NCBI GenBank assembly: GCA_016839905.1
Contig: JAEOTJ010000360.1
Span: forward strand, 1 to 10,124
Length of the DNA stretch: 10,124 nucleotides
DNA from: Promethearchaeota archaeon
GTDB taxonomy: Archaea; Asgardarchaeota; Lokiarchaeia; Sigynarchaeales; SOKP01
Direction of reading: 5' to 3'
Shown piece after piece: positions 2,250 through 9,788 of the stretch (its first letter is position 1; each line of letters starts with the position of its first letter). Both the position numbers and the translations under genes were made by a program. The notes beneath the pieces are model-generated. The model did not search any database, was not told the origin of the DNA, and was given only the letters and a program-made list of their open reading frames with translations.

Positions 2250-2447
2250 ATGGGAAAAGATAAAGATAAACCTAAATTGGGTATTAAAACTTCGAGATAT
2301 TATACAAAAACATGCATATGCAATTTTGAATACCCTAGTTGGTTTACTAATTGTCCAAAATGTGGTGCTATATGGAATGAAACAGATGAAAAAATTGATA
2401 GTATTGAAAAAGAAGAATTTAAAAAAAAAAAAACATTAAAATTGTAG
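2250..2447 (+). CDS. zinc-ribbon N-terminal half of a probably frameshifted protein
   Basis: The 65 residues begin MGKDKDKPKLGIKTSRYY and contain one zinc ribbon with Cys22, Cys24, Cys35 and Cys38 (CIC followed by CPKC), then an acidic and lysine-rich tail. The frame ends at TAG 2445-2447, just after a run of 13 A at 2421-2433. In the -1 frame the sequence remains open from 2423 and reads KKKNIKIVVKITEEDFDEAI straight into the downstream ORF. One more A would join the two into a 170-residue protein with a zinc ribbon followed by an Ig/E-set-like domain. No homologue is recognised. The ribbon suggests binding to protein or nucleic acid, but that is inference. Confidence 0.6.
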   Translation: MGKDKDKPKLGIKTSRYYTKTCICNFEYPSWFTNCPKCGAIWNETDEKIDSIEKEEFKKKKTLKL

Positions 2448-2506
2448 TAAAAATTACAGAAGAAGATTTTGATGAGGCAATAGGTTATGTTCAATTAATT
2501 TTCAGT

Positions 2507-2761
2507 GTGGATCAAGGAAAATCTTGGTTTCAAATGAAAATGGATAACAATATGGATTATTTTATTGCCGAAATAGCTGAAGTTCCTATTGGTGCCGTTG
2601 TTATTTATTACATTGAAGTATATTTAGTAAATGGGGAAAAAGTAATTGAGAATAATGATGGGAATTATTTTAAATACCAAGTTGGAAACCTTAATCTTAA
2701 AGTAAAAGGAAAAAATAAGGGCTCGGAGTTAAAAGTCTCTAATAATAATATAAATGATTAA
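2507..2761 (+). CDS. Ig/E-set-like C-terminal half of the frameshifted zinc-ribbon protein
   Basis: This frame can begin at the GTG at 2507, but it is open from 2423 and codes sensibly throughout (KITEEDFDEAIGYVQLIFS), so the GTG is probably internal. The residues form alternating beta strands. The pattern VDQGKSWFQMKMD, an aromatic strand, then PIGAVVIYYIEVYLVNGEK is typical of fibronectin-III or E-set folds. No signal peptide or membrane segment is present. The stop TAA at 2759-2761 overlaps the ATG at 2754 of a decayed downstream gene. I infer one original gene with the 2250 ORF. Independent translation from GTG is possible, but no good ribosome binding site is visible. Confidence 0.5.
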   Translation: MDQGKSWFQMKMDNNMDYFIAEIAEVPIGAVVIYYIEVYLVNGEKVIENNDGNYFKYQVGNLNLKVKGKNKGSELKVSNNNIND

Positions 2762-2915
2762 GTTTTCACCCTCTAAAAGTCAAGAAAATGGAGAAATAAC
2801 AATATTTGGAAAGGCTCAAATAAAATTGATCCCGATTTAAAAAGTTGTCCATAATGTAATTCAAAAATAAAAAAAGATATGGATAATTAATCCTATTTGT
2901 AGAGGAAAAATCTAG
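2754..2915 (+). pseudogene. decayed small zinc-ribbon gene
   Basis: From ATG 2754, overlapping the preceding stop, one frame reads MIKFSPSKSQENGEITIFGK and then AQIKLIPI before a stop. The -1 frame continues the theme: KIDPDLKSCP, then TAA where a Lys codon is expected, then CNSKIKKDMDN. After another stop and frame change comes PICRGKI and a TAG at 2913-2915. Together these outline a protein of about 54 residues ending in a CPxC plus xPIC ribbon. Lesions are a frame change near the A4 run at 2822-2825, a nonsense codon at 2852-2854 between the first two cysteines, and loss of the third cysteine with a frame change near 2888. More than one lesion is not at a homopolymer, so real decay is likelier here than at the neighbouring A13. 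Confidence 0.5.
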
Positions 2916-3021: not shown

Positions 3022-5073
3022 CTACAGTTTATTACCACATTTATTACAAAAAGCATAATCTGAAGATAGGACAGAACCACATTGACCACAAATTCGTATT
3101 TCTTTTTTCTTTTGCTTTTTCCCTGATTTTTTTTTTGGTTTTTTTGGTATGGGCGTAGTTTGAAAAGAGGTCAGTGTATCTTGAAAATTATTTTTAATAT
3201 CTTCAACATTAGGAATAATCTTTAGGTTGGAAGTTTCTTCAGATTTAGTGCCTTCAGTTGCAGTAAATGGAATAAATGTAGAGTTTTCTGAAATGGATGA
3301 TTCAATAGTTTTTTGAGATAAAGATTGAAAAAGAGTAGGAGACCCTGTAGCTTTAGCTTTTGAGGGGGGTTGAGGAACTTTTACTTCCTTAGGTTTGCTT
3401 TTCTTTTCTTTTTTAACCTTTTCCTTCGCTTCTTTTGCTTCTTTAATCTTTCTCTCTTTATCTAATTTAGCTTGTTCTTTTGCTTCTTTTGCTTTCCTTA
3501 TCTCTTCCAACTTGGCCTTTTCTTTTGCTTCTTTTGCTTCTTTAATCTTTTTCTCTTTATCTAATTTAGCTTGTTCTTTTGCTTCCTTAGGTTTGCTTTT
3601 CTTTTCTTTTTTAACCTGTTCTTTTGCTTCTTTAGTCTTTCTCTCTTTATCTAATTTAGCTTGTTCTTTTGCTTCTTTCTTTTTTTGTTTTTCAATTTTT
3701 TTTTGTTCTTTTTTAGATATTATAGTTTGAGGCATATAATCAAATAAAGAATCAGAAGCTGTTCCTTCTGATTGTAAGGATGTTGTTGTTTGAGAAGATT
3801 CAATATCAGGAATAGGGAAAAAATGATCTGTTAATTCCTGAGTAGGTTTGGAGATTTCGGAGTCATTAGATACAGGAAAAGGAACTGAAGATTTTATATC
3901 ATCTACCCTTGGAAATCCTTCAGGTGCAGGAGCGGGAACAGGAATATTTGATGAAAAAGGTACGACTTTTGGTTTATAAACGGGGCTTTCAGATCTTTTT
4001 TCTGTGCTTGTACTTTTAAAAGACTCTGATGACAGAGAAGCTGCAGGCAATTCTTTTTTCTTTTCTACTTTTGATAAGATTTCATCTGGAGTTTTAAATT
4101 CAAATTCTTCTATTTGTTTAACTTTTTCTTCATTTTCTTTTTTAAAGATTGGAATTTCATGTTCTGTTTTGGAGATTACACTATTCTCTGGGATTGGAGG
4201 GGTTTCAAATTCAAATTCGAGTTCTGGTTCAATTTTAAAAGAAGGTTTCGATTCGACTATAGTACCTTTTTCAAGGACTGGAGGGGCTTCAAACTCAAAT
4301 TCGAGTTCTGGTTCAATTTCAAAAGAGGGTTTCGAATCGACTACAGTACTTTTCTCAGGTACGGGAGGGGCTTCAAATTCAAATTCGGGTTCGAGTTCTA
4401 ATGTAGTTTCAGGAACTGGCATAGCGGAAGATTCTAATTCAGATTTTATCGGATAAATGGTATCTTTAGCTGAACTTATCCCAGTTATTGAAATTTGTCC
4501 AGGATATGAAACAACTCCACTATTTAAAAATTGCTCGGGTACTCCAGATCCTATCATTAAGCAAGCTAAAATATGAAAACAATCTCCAACGCCCGCACCA
4601 GTTTTTGCAGAAGTTTCCATATAATATAAATCAAACTGTTTTGTAAATGTATTAAGTTCATCCATAGATATAACACGTTGATCAATTAAATCGCTTTTAT
4701 TTCCAACTAAAAGTAAAGGAATATCATTTTTCACATTAGCTCTTACTTCTTCAATCCATTGAGGCAAATGCTCGAAACTTTCATAATTTGTTAAGTCAAA
4801 AATCATTAATGCTCCTAATGACCCGCGATAATACATTGGTCTAATTGAGCTAAACCTTTCTTGTCCACCCGTATCCCATATCTGAAGTTTGGCTCGTATA
4901 GGTCCTTCATTAGTATCTACTGTAAGTGTTTTAACATGAAAATCTACTCCAATAGTCATTTTATAATCTTCTGAAAAAAAGTCTTTAGAAAATCTAAGAG
5001 TTAAAGCAGTTTTACCAACTCCTCCATCTCCTACGACAATTGACTTAAAAAGGAAATCATATTCATCAGACAT
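3022..5073 (-). CDS. Rab-like small GTPase with charged repeat linker and C-terminal zinc ribbon
   Basis: The first 175 of 683 residues are a complete Ras/Rab-type GTPase domain: P-loop GDGGVGKT (15-22), switch I Thr40 in TIGVDF, WDTGGQERF (66-74, with Gly where Rabs usually have Ala), NKSD (125-128) and ETSAK (153-157). Then follow an acidic linker with three copies of a 28-residue unit built on ELEFEFEAPP (about 225-300), a proline/serine-rich part, a highly charged helical segment of KEAKEQAKLDKE-type repeats (about 448-560), another low-complexity stretch, and a terminal zinc ribbon with Cys662, Cys665, Cys676 and Cys679. There is no prenylation motif, signal peptide or membrane segment. 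The domain should bind and hydrolyse GTP as a switch; effector and location are unknown. The start ATG at 5073 suits the family, since the domain begins eight residues later. The surface-protein gene is upstream on the same strand, 134 bases away. Confidence 0.92.
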   Translation of the reverse strand: MSDEYDFLFKSIVVGDGGVGKTALTLRFSKDFFSEDYKMTIGVDFHVKTLTVDTNEGPIRAKLQIWDTGGQERFSSIRPMYYRGSLGALMIFDLTNYESFEHLPQWIEEVRANVKNDIPLLLVGNKSDLIDQRVISMDELNTFTKQFDLYYMETSAKTGAGVGDCFHILACLMIGSGVPEQFLNSGVVSYPGQISITGISSAKDTIYPIKSELESSAMPVPETTLELEPEFEFEAPPVPEKSTVVDSKPSFEIEPELEFEFEAPPVLEKGTIVESKPSFKIEPELEFEFETPPIPENSVISKTEHEIPIFKKENEEKVKQIEEFEFKTPDEILSKVEKKKELPAASLSSESFKSTSTEKRSESPVYKPKVVPFSSNIPVPAPAPEGFPRVDDIKSSVPFPVSNDSEISKPTQELTDHFFPIPDIESSQTTTSLQSEGTASDSLFDYMPQTIISKKEQKKIEKQKKKEAKEQAKLDKERKTKEAKEQVKKEKKSKPKEAKEQAKLDKEKKIKEAKEAKEKAKLEEIRKAKEAKEQAKLDKERKIKEAKEAKEKVKKEKKSKPKEVKVPQPPSKAKATGSPTLFQSLSQKTIESSISENSTFIPFTATEGTKSEETSNLKIIPNVEDIKNNFQDTLTSFQTTPIPKKPKKKSGKKQKKKEIRICGQCGSVLSSDYAFCNKCGNKL
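3395..3700 (-). repeat. imperfect coding repeats, Lys/Glu/Ala-rich helix
   Basis: Within the GTPase gene, a block of roughly 50 bases encoding K-E-A-K-E-Q-A-K-L-D-K-E-(R/K)-K occurs three times at near identity. Shorter copies of KEAKEAKEK and of KKEKKSKPKE lie between them. The peptide alternates acidic and basic residues with few hydrophobics, as in single stable alpha-helices. Nucleotide identity between copies points to recent duplication or exchange. Confidence 0.7.
4196..4430 (-). repeat. 84-bp tandem repeat, about three copies
   Basis: The plus-strand landmark GGAGGGG plus YTTCAAA starts at 4196, 4280 and 4364, an exact 84-base period (28 codons). The copies encode an acidic unit containing ELEFEFEAPP(V/I)(P/L)E followed by a KPSF(E/K)IEPE segment. 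The last copy is partial. The period keeps the frame, so copy number can change without breaking the GTPase gene. Confidence 0.75.
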
Positions 5074-5207: not shown

Positions 5208-5858
5208 TTAATATTTAATAGAAATTTCCATTATATTTCTTAATTTAGATTTTTTAGTATTATTATAAAAAATAGAAGAAAATAATAGAATTAAAATAAC
5301 AACTATAATGAAGAATGGAAATAGATTTGATTGATAGGTAATTATTATCTCGGAATTTAAAGTAAAATCCTTCTCTTGTAAATAATAGGTTCCATTAAAA
5401 AATAATTCTATTCTTATGTCTGTTTTCTTTTGAGGAAAATTTAAGATTTCTTGAGGTATAAGTAAAAATAAAAGACCATTCTGGTTAGTTTCATCTATAC
5501 TTTCATATATTAATGTTTGTTGATTAAAAATTCTTATTTTTATAAGATCATTAACAAGAGCCCTTCTAATATTATTAAAATAATAAAAAAAAGATATATA
5601 TATCTTAAAATCTTCTTTCTCTTTTAAAATTCTATTAATTTTAAAGATCTCAATAAAGATTGGTGCTTTTTTAACAGTGAGATTATAAATAAATTCTGAA
5701 TTATGATAAAAAGTATGGTTTTTAATTAAAAAAATCAAAGAATTTTGATTTATATTTAAATAAATGGATGAAATATCAAATTCAATAATTCCTTGATCAT
5801 CGATTGTCAAGTTTTCTTCAAAAAAAAAAAACATCCTCAGAATATATCTTAAATTCAA
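5208..5858 (-). CDS. C-terminal, membrane-anchored half of a surface protein split by T12
   Basis: The listed start (ATG at 5858) is out of context: its first 12 codons lie over the end of the upstream ORF in another frame, and the coherent protein starts at the T-run with EENLTIDDQGIIEF. It is beta-rich, with sequons NLT, NHT, NLT and NGT. A hydrophobic segment, LFPFFIIVVILILLFSSIF, lies about 20 residues before the end, followed by a basic tail (NNTKKSKLRN). This is the topology of a type I surface protein: an outside domain, one membrane anchor and a short cytosolic tail. Removing one T from the 12-base run (plus 5820-5831) joins it to the 5818-6417 ORF, giving about 402 residues. The Rab-like GTPase gene follows on the same strand. 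No family is recognised. Confidence 0.6.
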   Translation of the reverse strand: MNLRYILRMFFFFEENLTIDDQGIIEFDISSIYLNINQNSLIFLIKNHTFYHNSEFIYNLTVKKAPIFIEIFKINRILKEKEDFKIYISFFYYFNNIRRALVNDLIKIRIFNQQTLIYESIDETNQNGLLFLLIPQEILNFPQKKTDIRIELFFNGTYYLQEKDFTLNSEIIITYQSNLFPFFIIVVILILLFSSIFYNNTKKSKLRNIMEISIKY

Positions 5859-6417
5859 CAGTATGATTAACTAAGTAATAACTAGTATCTAACACATTAT
5901 CATAAAACCTTGCTTTTATCTTCAGATTATCCCCATAAAAAATATTATTATTAAATCCAAATAATTGACATGAGATAGTTCTTTTTAGAATTACAATCTC
6001 AATCTCCTCTAAAAATTCATTAAAAACCTCTTCCATCTCCTCTATATTAAAAAGATATATATAAAATTTAACAGAAAGATTAATTGAATGGCAAAAAAAA
6101 GAGAGATTTAAATTTTGGATGTTAATTGTCCAATTCATATAAAAATTTCCAATGTTATCATATATTGAGGAATTCCAAATCAAATTATTATAATTATCGT
6201 AGATTTGTACTTGAATATAGGAAATTTCAGTGATAATATTATAATTTAATTCCCATGAAGCATTTATTATAATCTTATCATCAATATAATATTGTTCTTT
6301 ATCTGTATTTAAATAAATCAGATTAAAAGGAGGAGGAGATCCTCTTACATTAAGATTTAAATGAAAAACTCCAAGAAAAATAAAAATTATTATTATTGGA
6401 ACATTTTTTTTTTTCAC
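5818..6417 (-). CDS. N-terminal, secreted half of a surface protein split by T12
   Basis: The frame starts at GTG 6417-6415 and encodes 199 residues; an overlapping ATG at 6419 is followed at once by TGA. The N-terminus is a clear signal peptide: MKKKN, then the hydrophobic core VPIIIIFIFLGVF, with likely cleavage near residue 26. Two beta-rich modules follow, each opening with an aromatic/YIDD- or FYGD-type strand as in bacterial and archaeal Ig-like surface repeats. The sequons NAS, NSS, NWT, NLS (twice) and NHT suggest N-glycosylation. The frame ends in FFF then TGA inside a T12 run. The other frame continues the same domain, so I read this as the 5' part of one gene ending at 5208. It is probably a cell-surface protein of unknown ligand. 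Confidence 0.6.
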   Translation of the reverse strand: MKKKNVPIIIIFIFLGVFHLNLNVRGSPPPFNLIYLNTDKEQYYIDDKIIINASWELNYNIITEISYIQVQIYDNYNNLIWNSSIYDNIGNFYMNWTINIQNLNLSFFCHSINLSVKFYIYLFNIEEMEEVFNEFLEEIEIVILKRTISCQLFGFNNNIFYGDNLKIKARFYDNVLDTSYYLVNHTVEFKIYSEDVFFF

Positions 6418-6869: not shown

Positions 6870-7259
6870 ATGGCGGAATTTCTTAGATCCGGCCATACAA
6901 TGTTAAATATGGCTTGTCCAGTTTGCAATAATCCAATTTTTCGTGATAAGAATGGAGATAAATATTGTCCTATTTGTAATAAAAGGGTTTTAATTATAAA
7001 AAATGAATCTCAACAAAAAGTCTTAAATCCGAAGAAAATTGATGATAATAATTATAAATTTATAGAAAATAATCAAGTTTCTTTGAATAATGTTTTAATA
7101 TCATTTAGAAATATTATTATTAAAAAAATTGATTGGCTTTCTAAAAAATTAGAAGAAGAAACAGATATTGATTTGATTAAAAAAATTCTTAAACTCCTAT
7201 TATATTGCTATGATATTATCAATAAATCAAATAATCTAATTAATTCAGACAAGTTATAA
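6870..7259 (+). CDS. UPF0148 / Sjogren-scleroderma autoantigen 1-family zinc-ribbon protein
   Basis: The N-terminus MAEFLRSGHTML followed by ACPVCNNPIF and CPICNKRV is the signature of archaeal UPF0148 proteins, whose ribbon is shared with human SSSCA1 (autoantigen p27). Zinc ligands are Cys16, Cys19, Cys33 and Cys36. The remaining 90 residues are lysine- and asparagine-rich with a helical C-terminal region (about 75-120) that resembles nothing I know; typical family members have a similar ribbon-plus-helix plan. The molecular role of the archaeal family is not established. The ATG at 6870 is chosen because MAEFL plus SG/TML is the conserved family start. Position next to rps17e hints at, but does not prove, a link to translation. 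Confidence 0.82.
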   Translation: MAEFLRSGHTMLNMACPVCNNPIFRDKNGDKYCPICNKRVLIIKNESQQKVLNPKKIDDNNYKFIENNQVSLNNVLISFRNIIIKKIDWLSKKLEEETDIDLIKKILKLLLYCYDIINKSNNLINSDKL

Positions 7260-7481: not shown

Positions 7482-8504
7482 TCATTTATTAATAAATATA
7501 GGTTTTAACAGATTTACATAATGGTCTCTTATAGAATATTCTGGTATATTAGTTGCTTCTGAAATATTTTTTTGAGTTAAAACTGCTTTTTGGGCAAATT
7601 CTTTAGCTAAGAGTTTATCTGCTAAATAAATTATAGCTCCTGTTAATATAAATGGGTTCCGCCCCCCTCGATCCCATGATGTTAAATTTCTAAGAATTTC
7701 ACGACTTTTTATTGTTAATTTATTTTGAAATTCTTTTAATGACCACTTTACATCCTTTTTTAATAGTTTATTTCTTAATTCCTTATGATTTATTACATTA
7801 TTTATTAATCTTGTAAGATAATCCTCACTTTTATGATGTGTAGATTTTGTGAGGATATATTTTTTATATAATAATCCATCTCTCATAATTAGCCTTGGAT
7901 TGACCCGATGACCAAAAACTTGGAATGCATTTGAAATCTCGTTAATCGTAATAGGAGCATTATGATTTTCTTTTCTTGCAGCAAAAAAAATACAAAATGC
8001 TATTAATGATATATTATTTATTACTCTTTCCTCGTTTTTTATTATCTTTTTATAAAAATAAGCAGCATTTTTAGATATATTTTTATTAAGATTTAGATAT
8101 ATTGAAATTTTATTTAAGATATTAAAGATTCTATATTCAGTCTCGTGATTTTTGATTCGAATGAATTGAGCATATTTTTTTTTTAACCTATTAAATAATC
8201 TTTGTTCATTTGGAGGTAAAAGTTTTCCAGATTTATCTTTCAAATATCTTGAATTCTCATAATCTATATATGTTCCTAAACCTCCTATAAAATTTGTTCT
8301 TTCTCCTAAGGCTACATATTGTTTATTTAAATTATTTTTAAGACTTCTTTCATTAAATATATATGAAGAATCTCCATAAATCTCTTCGAGAACTAACCCA
8401 CATTCATTGCAAACTTTTTCAAAACTAGTTAAAACTATTTCTCCTTTACATTCTGGACATTTTTCTAAATTAAAATTTGAATTATACTCTAATATTATTA
8501 TCAC
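7482..8504 (-). CDS. tfb: transcription factor B (TFIIB homologue), divergent paralogue
   Basis: TFB bridges TBP-bound promoter DNA and RNA polymerase in archaea. Residues 16-35 form the zinc ribbon (CPEC and CNEC). A linker follows with GLGTYIDYENSRYLKD, equivalent to the B-reader/linker that normally reads GLSTVID or similar. Two cyclin-like repeats occupy about 110-210 and 225-330. The second ends in a helix-turn-helix (LTQKNISEATNIPEYSIRDH) that contacts the BRE. At 340 residues it is longer than the usual 300, and several normally conserved positions differ, suggesting an additional TFB rather than the main one. The start is GTG at 8504-8502; no ATG lies before the first cysteine. A TATA-like element at 8518-8531 makes a leaderless message likely. 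tRNA-Glu follows 75 bases downstream on the same strand. Confidence 0.88.
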   Translation of the reverse strand: MIIILEYNSNFNLEKCPECKGEIVLTSFEKVCNECGLVLEEIYGDSSYIFNERSLKNNLNKQYVALGERTNFIGGLGTYIDYENSRYLKDKSGKLLPPNEQRLFNRLKKKYAQFIRIKNHETEYRIFNILNKISIYLNLNKNISKNAAYFYKKIIKNEERVINNISLIAFCIFFAARKENHNAPITINEISNAFQVFGHRVNPRLIMRDGLLYKKYILTKSTHHKSEDYLTRLINNVINHKELRNKLLKKDVKWSLKEFQNKLTIKSREILRNLTSWDRGGRNPFILTGAIIYLADKLLAKEFAQKAVLTQKNISEATNIPEYSIRDHYVNLLKPIFINK

Positions 8505-9098: not shown

Positions 9099-9788
9099 AT
9101 GGTTCGATTTACATCAGATCATAATGTATATATAAAAATTCTTTATTGGGGAATGGGTGGATCGGGAAAAACTACAGCTGTAGATACACTTTATCGATCA
9201 ACCAAAGAGGAAAAAAAGGAAATTGAACCTACGGGGAATTTAACTAAAATTTCGATGGCTAGTGGTTCAACTCTATATTTTGATAGAGGAATCTTCCAAT
9301 CTACAAAATCAAAAAAAGTTTTTTATCATGTGTATACTGTTGCGGGGCAAAGTAGATTTCATCCTTTAAGAAAAAAGATATTTAAAGGCACTGATGGAGT
9401 AATTTTCGTAGTTGATTCTCAAACTCATTTTTTTGAAGATAATATTGAATCGTTAAAAGAATTAAAAAATGTGACAAGAGGTAAATTAATAACTGAAATA
9501 CCTCTGATTATAATGTTAAATAAGCAAGATCTTACAGAAGTTATCGGGGAAGAAGAATTTAAACAAATTTTAAAAGAAGAGAAAATTTGGTATGAGCCTA
9601 ATAATAAATTATCTATATGGAATCCGATGATTTACAAATCATGTGCATTATATGATAAACAAAAAGACGTATATCGTAGTTTTTCTGAATGTGCAAGAAG
9701 GACAGGATTATATCAATTATATGGAAATGGGAAAGCTCCAGTAGGGGATGATTTATTAAAAATTTCAAAAGAGAAAAAAGACATATAA
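9099..9788 (+). CDS. MglA/Arf-like small GTPase
   Basis: The 229-residue protein has the P-loop GMGGSGKT (18-25), a G3 region reading VYTVAGQSRF in which Thr80 takes the place of the usual Asp of DxxG, VIFVVDSQ (101-108), and NKQD (141-144); a weak G5 is SCA at 181-183. Thr at that position and the TV(A/P)GQ form are characteristic of the MglA family, bacterial polarity GTPases, and of related Asgard proteins. An Arf/SRP-receptor-beta-like assignment is the alternative. There is no lipidation motif, signal peptide or membrane segment, so cytosolic switching at a membrane or scaffold is inferred. The C-terminal 40 residues go beyond the core fold. No GTPase-activating Roadblock partner is visible next to it, unlike mglA-mglB pairs. 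The ATG at 9099 lies nine residues before the first beta strand. Confidence 0.87.
   Translation: MVRFTSDHNVYIKILYWGMGGSGKTTAVDTLYRSTKEEKKEIEPTGNLTKISMASGSTLYFDRGIFQSTKSKKVFYHVYTVAGQSRFHPLRKKIFKGTDGVIFVVDSQTHFFEDNIESLKELKNVTRGKLITEIPLIIMLNKQDLTEVIGEEEFKQILKEEKIWYEPNNKLSIWNPMIYKSCALYDKQKDVYRSFSECARRTGLYQLYGNGKAPVGDDLLKISKEKKDI

Follow-up and report, generated by a model that had tools for sequence, protein, structure and literature searches.

The window, by which we mean the whole 10,124-nucleotide stretch of DNA that was analysed, carries on its minus strand a complete gene for a Rab-like GTPase that ends in a zinc ribbon, and beside it, on the plus strand, the interrupted remnant of a second ribbon-bearing gene, here called c1. 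The features of the two genes, with the evidence for each, are as follows.

3022..5073, minus strand: ribbon-tailed Rab-like GTPase, complete gene, 683 aa (ORF and family comparison)
4528..5073, minus strand: Rab-like G domain and conserved C-terminal helix, residues 1-182 (Pfam Ras, invariant G motifs)
3718..4527, minus strand: proline-rich, acidic part of the arm, residues 183-452 (mostly pLDDT <50 in the AF2 model; composition)
4184..4392, minus strand: tandem repeat, 84-base unit x2.5, encoding EPELEFEFEAPPVPEK-type units (repeat analysis)
4075..4104, minus strand: motif FEFKTPDEIL, residues 324-333 (conserved in family)
3913..3978, minus strand: motif YKPKxxPFSSNxPVPAPAPEGF, residues 366-387 (conserved in family)
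3697..3753, minus strand: motif DSLFDYMPxxxxSKKxxKK, residues 441-459 (conserved in family)
3415..3714, minus strand: K/E-rich continuous helix, residues 454-553 (AF2 model)
3310..3339, minus strand: motif PTLFQSLSQK, residues 579-588 (conserved in family)
3265..3276, minus strand: motif FIPF, residues 600-603 (conserved in family)
3205..3225, minus strand: motif LKIIPNV, residues 617-623 (conserved in family)
3025..3096, minus strand: terminal zinc ribbon, CxxC-x10-CxxC, residues 660-683 (conservation and AF2 tip; Pfam match below cut-off)
2250..2890, plus strand: c1 remnant, interrupted (cluster and three-frame reading; only 2507-2761 is a listed open frame, and the limits were set by eye)

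The window also encodes an Arf-like GTPase (9099-9788; PF00025, E 1.9e-18), the second GTPase gene present, a divergent TFIIB-like protein (7482-8504; TFIIB repeat E 1.3e-7, with a sub-threshold zinc-ribbon match) and a small protein with an Autoantigen p27-type match (6870-7259; PF06677, E 5.1e-14). A DUF2100 protein at 1494-1850 looks truncated, as its 118 aa match profile positions 102-202 of 210 and its relatives have ~200 aa. Two overlapping ORFs without a Pfam match (5208-6417, minus strand) look like a single gene split by a frameshift.

The open reading frame at 3022-5073 is uninterrupted from ATG to stop. An earlier note on this DNA had read its N-terminus as a complete Rab-type G domain, and this holds: residues 10-170 match Pfam Ras (E 2.7e-52) and the G-box motifs of the Ras superfamily are complete, with GDGGVGKT, WDTGGQ(ERF), NKSD and ETSAK invariant or nearly so across 37 aligned family members. 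The nearest solved PDB chains by sequence are Rab1A, Ypt1, Rab30, Rab11 and Rab8; nearly all of the 60 chains listed, of 859, are Rab or Ypt by name, and the Asgard Rab 7EZB is also among the PDB matches. Set against what we take to be the RabF1-F5 letters, IGVDF and KLQIW are exact, and RFSSIR, YYRGS and LMIFDLT deviate in part. GTP hydrolysis is plausible because the G motifs are intact. Lacking from the protein are a roadblock or longin domain (Pfam, E 0.1) and, as the earlier note had pointed out, the prenylatable C-terminal cysteines of a Rab: the only cysteines are residues 165 and 171 and the four of the ribbon, and the sequence ends in CNKCGNKL.

The G domain and the ribbon are joined by an arm of about 477 residues. 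The earlier description of some 480 residues of repetitive linker is right as to length, and the repeats are real (45- and 99-base units inside 3417-3678 occur in addition to the 84-base unit listed above), but the arm is not only repeats. At least six short motifs recur in fixed order across aligned family members, in the forms FEFKTPxEIL, YKPKxxPFxSNxPVPAPAPxGF, SLxDYMP-SKKxKKK, SLFQxL, FxPF and LRIIPNV, and an APPVPE-type motif is found up to five times per protein (median 2) among the 120 family proteins listed of 484. The long charged helix noted before is continuous at residues 454-553 in the AF2 model of the full protein (pTM 0.34), where block means are 80-94 except over the final few residues, and K+R make up 43% and D+E 25% of residues 453-556. 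At 0.15 nm per residue these 100 modelled residues would span ~15 nm if straight, and most of the 37 aligned members have a shorter charged stretch; the suggested reach of tens of nanometres is thus plausible for the whole arm only. Arm length varies from 316 to 476 residues across 112 ribbon-ended core members, and the arms of 112 proteins, among them the window's, contain no cysteine in 39,882 residues. Arm proline content is 13.5% for the core list and 19.8% for the other long members, versus 4.3% in 273 neighbour proteins. The arm diverges in sequence, with its proline richness and near-absence of cysteine persisting.

The ribbon, compared here with the zinc-ribbon families PF13240/PF13248, occupies the last 24 residues of the chain, where it had been placed from the sequence. 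Zn_Ribbon_1 (PF13240) matches the window protein at E 6.8e-4 and 19.8 bits and so does not reach the Pfam cut-off of 25 bits; for this reason the assignment relies on conservation and on the modelled tip. The four cysteines are invariant in 37 of 37 aligned members, and the AF2 tip has pLDDT 82-85 from residue 661, with strands at 659-661 and 668-670. Many relatives among the 120 family proteins listed carry a precomputed PF13240 label, and the x10 spacing is found in 111 of 111 ribbon-ended proteins (among the 120 listed of 484). A chance origin is excluded by the constancy of this spacing and by the cysteine-free arm across the family. The ribbon probably binds metal, presumably zinc. In the window protein lysine-rich residues directly precede it; many relatives lack this stretch (in locus L065, for example, the sequence is QPEIQKTSSKEIIVC).

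The protein search with the G domain could retrieve proteins of ~375-1195 aa only; it gave 484 of 670 candidates at E <=1e-20, of which 120 were listed. With a protein termed ribbon-ended if its ribbon lies no more than 12 residues from the C-terminal end, 111 of the 120 listed qualify. The nine exceptions are a rotifer protein, the fusions P0004 (ribbon 19 residues from the end) and P0006 (no ribbon), and six fragments or disturbed ends, three of them named partial. P0004 (1148 aa) and P0006 (879 aa) are tandem GTPases in which a second Rab-like part lies N-terminal to the family G domain.

A GTDB genome alignment scan identified 64 loci. Titles place 56 of them in Lokiarchaeota or Lokiarchaeia, and the other eight, mostly weaker, in Sigynarchaeum, Sigynarchaeota, Sifarchaeum, Jordarchaeia/Jordarchaeum (three), Freyarchaeota and one Verrucomicrobiaceae; we take the host group of the family to be Lokiarchaeia/Promethearchaeia. 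The earlier note had proposed a check on relatives in closed genomes, to decide whether the fusion of GTPase and ribbon was an assembly artefact or a one-off. The outcome favours a genuine fusion: the fused gene is present in two records titled chromosome (CP070805.1, locus L019; CP070831.1, locus L020) and on a 4,361,485-base contig (L075). CP070831.1 is not gap-free, as a 100-N run (L061) lies beside a fragment matching residues 1-42 of the family gene; the frame of the L020 copy on this record is open throughout.

The search of Asgard proteins for a Rab domain with a terminal ribbon, also proposed earlier, gave ribbon-bearing relatives in dozens of genomes. A G-domain match at E <=1e-62 occurs in 88 of the 227 Asgard genomes, and 64 of the 92 matches end in a ribbon. 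At 300 bits or more to the window G domain the fraction is 43 of 45, and the remaining two are cut, L127 by an N-gap and L130 by a contig end. The other ribbonless matches are three short close paralogs whose G domain is followed by neither arm nor ribbon (L136, L137, L139), one protein whose long C-terminus is of another kind (L086), two long proteins cut by contig ends (L082, L085) and 20 short Rab-like proteins from other clades, one of them cut. In the gene copies of two of the paralogs (L046 and L047, corresponding to L137 and L139) DTGGE replaces DTGGQ, with loss of the Gln. The two chromosome genomes encode 44 and 28 Rab-like domains (E <=1e-30), with one family member in each (382 and 380 bits, versus 168 for the runner-up); judged from these sequences, the ribbon-tailed copy is normally one per genome.

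Distant members keep the plan and have quite different arm sequences; that of Sigynarchaeum springense (L048), for example, is alanine/proline-rich. A second search, with a Helarchaeal-clade query, gave 470 proteins at E <=1e-40, of which 120 were listed and 119 were new. Of these 119, 95 are ribbon-ended if the limit is set at 12 residues from the end, and 105 if it is set at 20. Record names among the matches include Helarchaeota, Lokiarchaeota and Sigynarchaeum, and names of single metagenome records vary. A second type of Rab-like protein with a ribbon at or near its end is short, at 286-333 aa (L090, L091, L092 and, for example, P0160), and several of its records are named Helarchaeota; its arm has a median of 86 residues and 1.7% proline, and in the three loci L090-L092 the ribbon spacing is x13. 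In Jordarchaeia a Rab-like domain is fused to an M20-type peptidase (L055, by Pfam; L057 and L058 have similar ends).

Sequence constraint is distributed unevenly along the protein. Over the 28 loci that have the GTPase, the neighbouring small GTPase and c1, the G domain averages 88.8% pairwise identity, compared with 80.6% for the ribbon, 50.3% for the arm and 64.0% for the small GTPase encoded nearby. The last is a protein of 167-190 aa whose gene lies on the same strand as the family gene and 1.4-4.9 kb upstream of it in 31 of 49 loci (e.g., L049:4076-4582). G domain identity is above that of all nine neighbour families, each compared in its own loci, in a comparison that sets one domain against whole proteins and so favours the domain: 86.3 versus 84.2% for the proteasomal ATPase (21 loci; some ATPase copies are cut by the locus end), 87.8 versus 81.0% for NrdD (34 loci), 88.2 versus 77.7% for PanB (32 loci), 87.2 versus 76.2% for an aminotransferase (37 loci), 87.0 versus 72.6% for a decarboxylase (41 loci), 89.5 versus 71.3% for an Arf/Gtr-like GTPase (17 loci), 86.8 versus 68.5% for NAC (29 loci), 86.7 versus 60.2% for MazG (40 loci) and 86.6 versus 57.5% for c1 (44 loci). 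This ranking points to a central job for the GTPase.

The c1 gene lies downstream of the GTPase gene and is convergent with it in 48 of 49 core loci, the window included. The gap is 12-260 nt in 47 of these 48; in the exception, L037 by its coordinates, the GTPase gene is interrupted by an N-gap. The c1 product has a beta-sandwich domain followed by a variable arm, flanked by an N-terminal and a C-terminal ribbon; both ribbons are present in 44 of the 48. The window copy has frameshifts and a stop inside the C-terminal ribbon; the gene is intact in most relatives. The GTPase was found in 62 selected genomes, c1 in 61 and both in 57, a co-occurrence that follows phylogeny and is hence inflated (the Fisher test ignores kinship). 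G domain and c1 are within 3 kb of each other in 54 genomes, on opposite strands in 52 and on the same strand in two (G092, G093); c1 is >4 kb from the GTPase in G087 and G088 and on a separate contig in G162. In loci L075-L078 (G089, G090, G092, G093) a ribbon-ended gene lies directly upstream and codirectional, and its product is matched by the c1 profile (E 1.6e-19 to 3.8e-8, taking a database of 4000 proteins). The count of 57 is conservative, since G089 and G090 were scored as lacking c1. The two genes are thus paired in more than one gene order, which favours a functional link. The wider neighbourhood (MazG, NrdD, NAC and proteasomal ATPase) is also conserved, and the adjacency of GTPase and c1 therefore counts for less than it might seem. 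No other ribbon-bearing gene was identified within 4.5-9 kb in L087-L089 (Helarchaeal clade) and L084 (Sigynarchaeum).

We propose that the ribbon docks the GTPase switch on a protein scaffold by way of the flexible arm, a reading that we consider about as probable as its contrary. The G domain, intact by sequence, would act as a GTP switch. The arm would form a disordered, proline-rich bristle that displays short binding motifs and sets the reach, with the charged single helix of the core family serving as a spacer. The C-terminal ribbon would fix the GTPase to another protein or scaffold, such that the switch is positioned by protein-protein binding and the positional role of a prenyl anchor is filled. 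The best candidate partner would be the neighbouring ribbon-tipped beta-sandwich protein c1. The built-in adaptor suggested by the earlier note would be a reasonable role for the ribbon-tailed GTPase.

One specific form of this proposal, which we regard as unlikely, is that the ribbon-tailed Rab and c1 join by their terminal ribbons as a split double zinc ribbon, providing prenyl-free, two-protein positioning. If so, the most conserved Rab of these archaea would be docked wherever the c1 beta-sandwich binds, and the pair would correspond in function to the hypervariable tail and anchor of Rabs. The first half of the Pfam double zinc ribbon DZR is matched by GTPase ribbons (window, P0004) and its second half by c1 C-terminal ribbons (L021, L081, L078), although the Sigynarchaeum GTPase ribbon (L048) runs counter to this pattern in matching the second half; all of these matches are below the Pfam cut-off, and half-matching is the sole hint of ribbon pairing, a weak one.

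Ribbons of this type frequently mediate contacts between proteins, and they could instead serve oligomerisation, with GTPases pairing tail to tail and the arms spacing two G domains. The strong constraint on the ribbon over the 28 loci and the match of the window ribbon to the first half of DZR speak for such pairing, but the ribbon-tipped neighbour protein would be left unexplained, and we give oligomerisation a small chance. Quite unlikely is autoinhibition, in which the ribbon of the GDP-bound protein would fold back on the switch regions of the same chain until a partner or GTP frees it. Conservation is strong for G domain and ribbon alike, which sit in a single chain, and a long flexible arm would permit the fold-back; arm length, however, is variable across the 112 core members, and at its pTM the AF2 model is uninformative on contact between ribbon and G domain either way. 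Just as doubtful is that the ribbon and the basic stretch ahead of it bind RNA, DNA or ribosomes, making the protein a GTPase of translation or chromosome organisation. The lysine-rich residues of the window protein and the NAC and proteasomal ATPase genes of the wider neighbourhood would fit such a role, whereas the G domain is Rab-like. With the lysine-rich stretch absent from many relatives, the case for the nucleic-acid platform that the earlier note had allowed for is weaker.

A proline-rich arm might also bind profilin, as the formin FH1 segment does by analogy, with GTPase and ribbon controlling the site of actin assembly. The proline-rich arm is kept in long members despite sequence turnover, and an Asgard profilin with polyproline binding is reported in the part of PMC8410842 drawn on here; the arm motifs, however, are acidic and not plain polyproline, and the arm of short Helarchaeal-type members is poor in proline, which makes this very unlikely. 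Misassembly, a chance ORF or a one-off, which metagenome data and the several broken frames of the window might suggest, is contradicted by the same fusion in dozens of assemblies, two of them titled chromosome, and has a negligible chance of being correct.

The preferred reading, docking through the ribbon, invites comparison with eukaryotic Rabs (Rab1/Ypt1, Rab8, Rab11), which share with the window protein a G domain, a variable C-terminal arm and a positioning module at the extreme C-terminus. The hypervariable tail of eukaryotic Rabs is short, whereas the window arm has about 477 residues, and the end is a ribbon rather than prenylated cysteines. Within the G domain, DTGGQ stands where Rab1a has DTAGQ. 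The short Helarchaeal-type GTPases likewise have a Rab-like domain and a ribbon at or near the end, but differ in their much shorter, proline-poor arm and, in the three loci L090-L092, in the x13 spacing of the ribbon. Large eukaryotic Rabs and RABL6 combine a GTPase domain with a long extra region and other domains; we know of none with a terminal ribbon. A description of a Rab-like domain with a long arm and a terminal ribbon was not found in the open-licence PubMed Central literature, in keeping with the earlier note, which knew of no such system.

Replacement of one attachment module by another has a precedent in Rheb, a small GTPase whose mode of attachment changed several times according to the abstract of Zahonova et al. 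(2018; PMC5869587), the prenylation motif being replaced by N-terminal PX or FYVE domains, by lipidation or by transmembrane segments. These variants are of eukaryotic Rheb, not Rab, and a ribbon-tipped arm is absent from that abstract. Thor-Rab and the other Asgard Rab-like GTPases treated in the portions of Tran et al. (2024; PMC10933270) used here resemble the window protein in having a Rab-like G domain and no prenylation cysteines. Thor-Rab, solved without a C-terminal extension, stops after the G domain, whereas our family has a long extension and a terminal cysteine module. Asgard GTPases fused to roadblock or longin (PMC10933270) also carry an added domain, but the window protein has neither by Pfam. 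A relative of the family may be drawn unrecognised in that paper's figure of MK-D1 small-GTPase architectures, which labels some parts as domains of unknown function. In the same portions of PMC10933270, none of the MK-D1 GTPases was found to have terminal cysteines, and BLAST found no homologues of REP or geranylgeranyl transferase in Asgard archaea. Dozens of Rab-like GTPases are encoded per chromosome genome searched, yet no Asgard Rab prenylation machinery is reported in those portions (PMC10933270), and the family offers a concrete candidate answer to how Asgard Rab-like switches are positioned without lipid anchors. The authors speculate there that the Rab C-terminal extension arose during eukaryogenesis (PMC10933270); an archaeal Rab-like protein with a long variable arm and a cysteine module qualifies that speculation.
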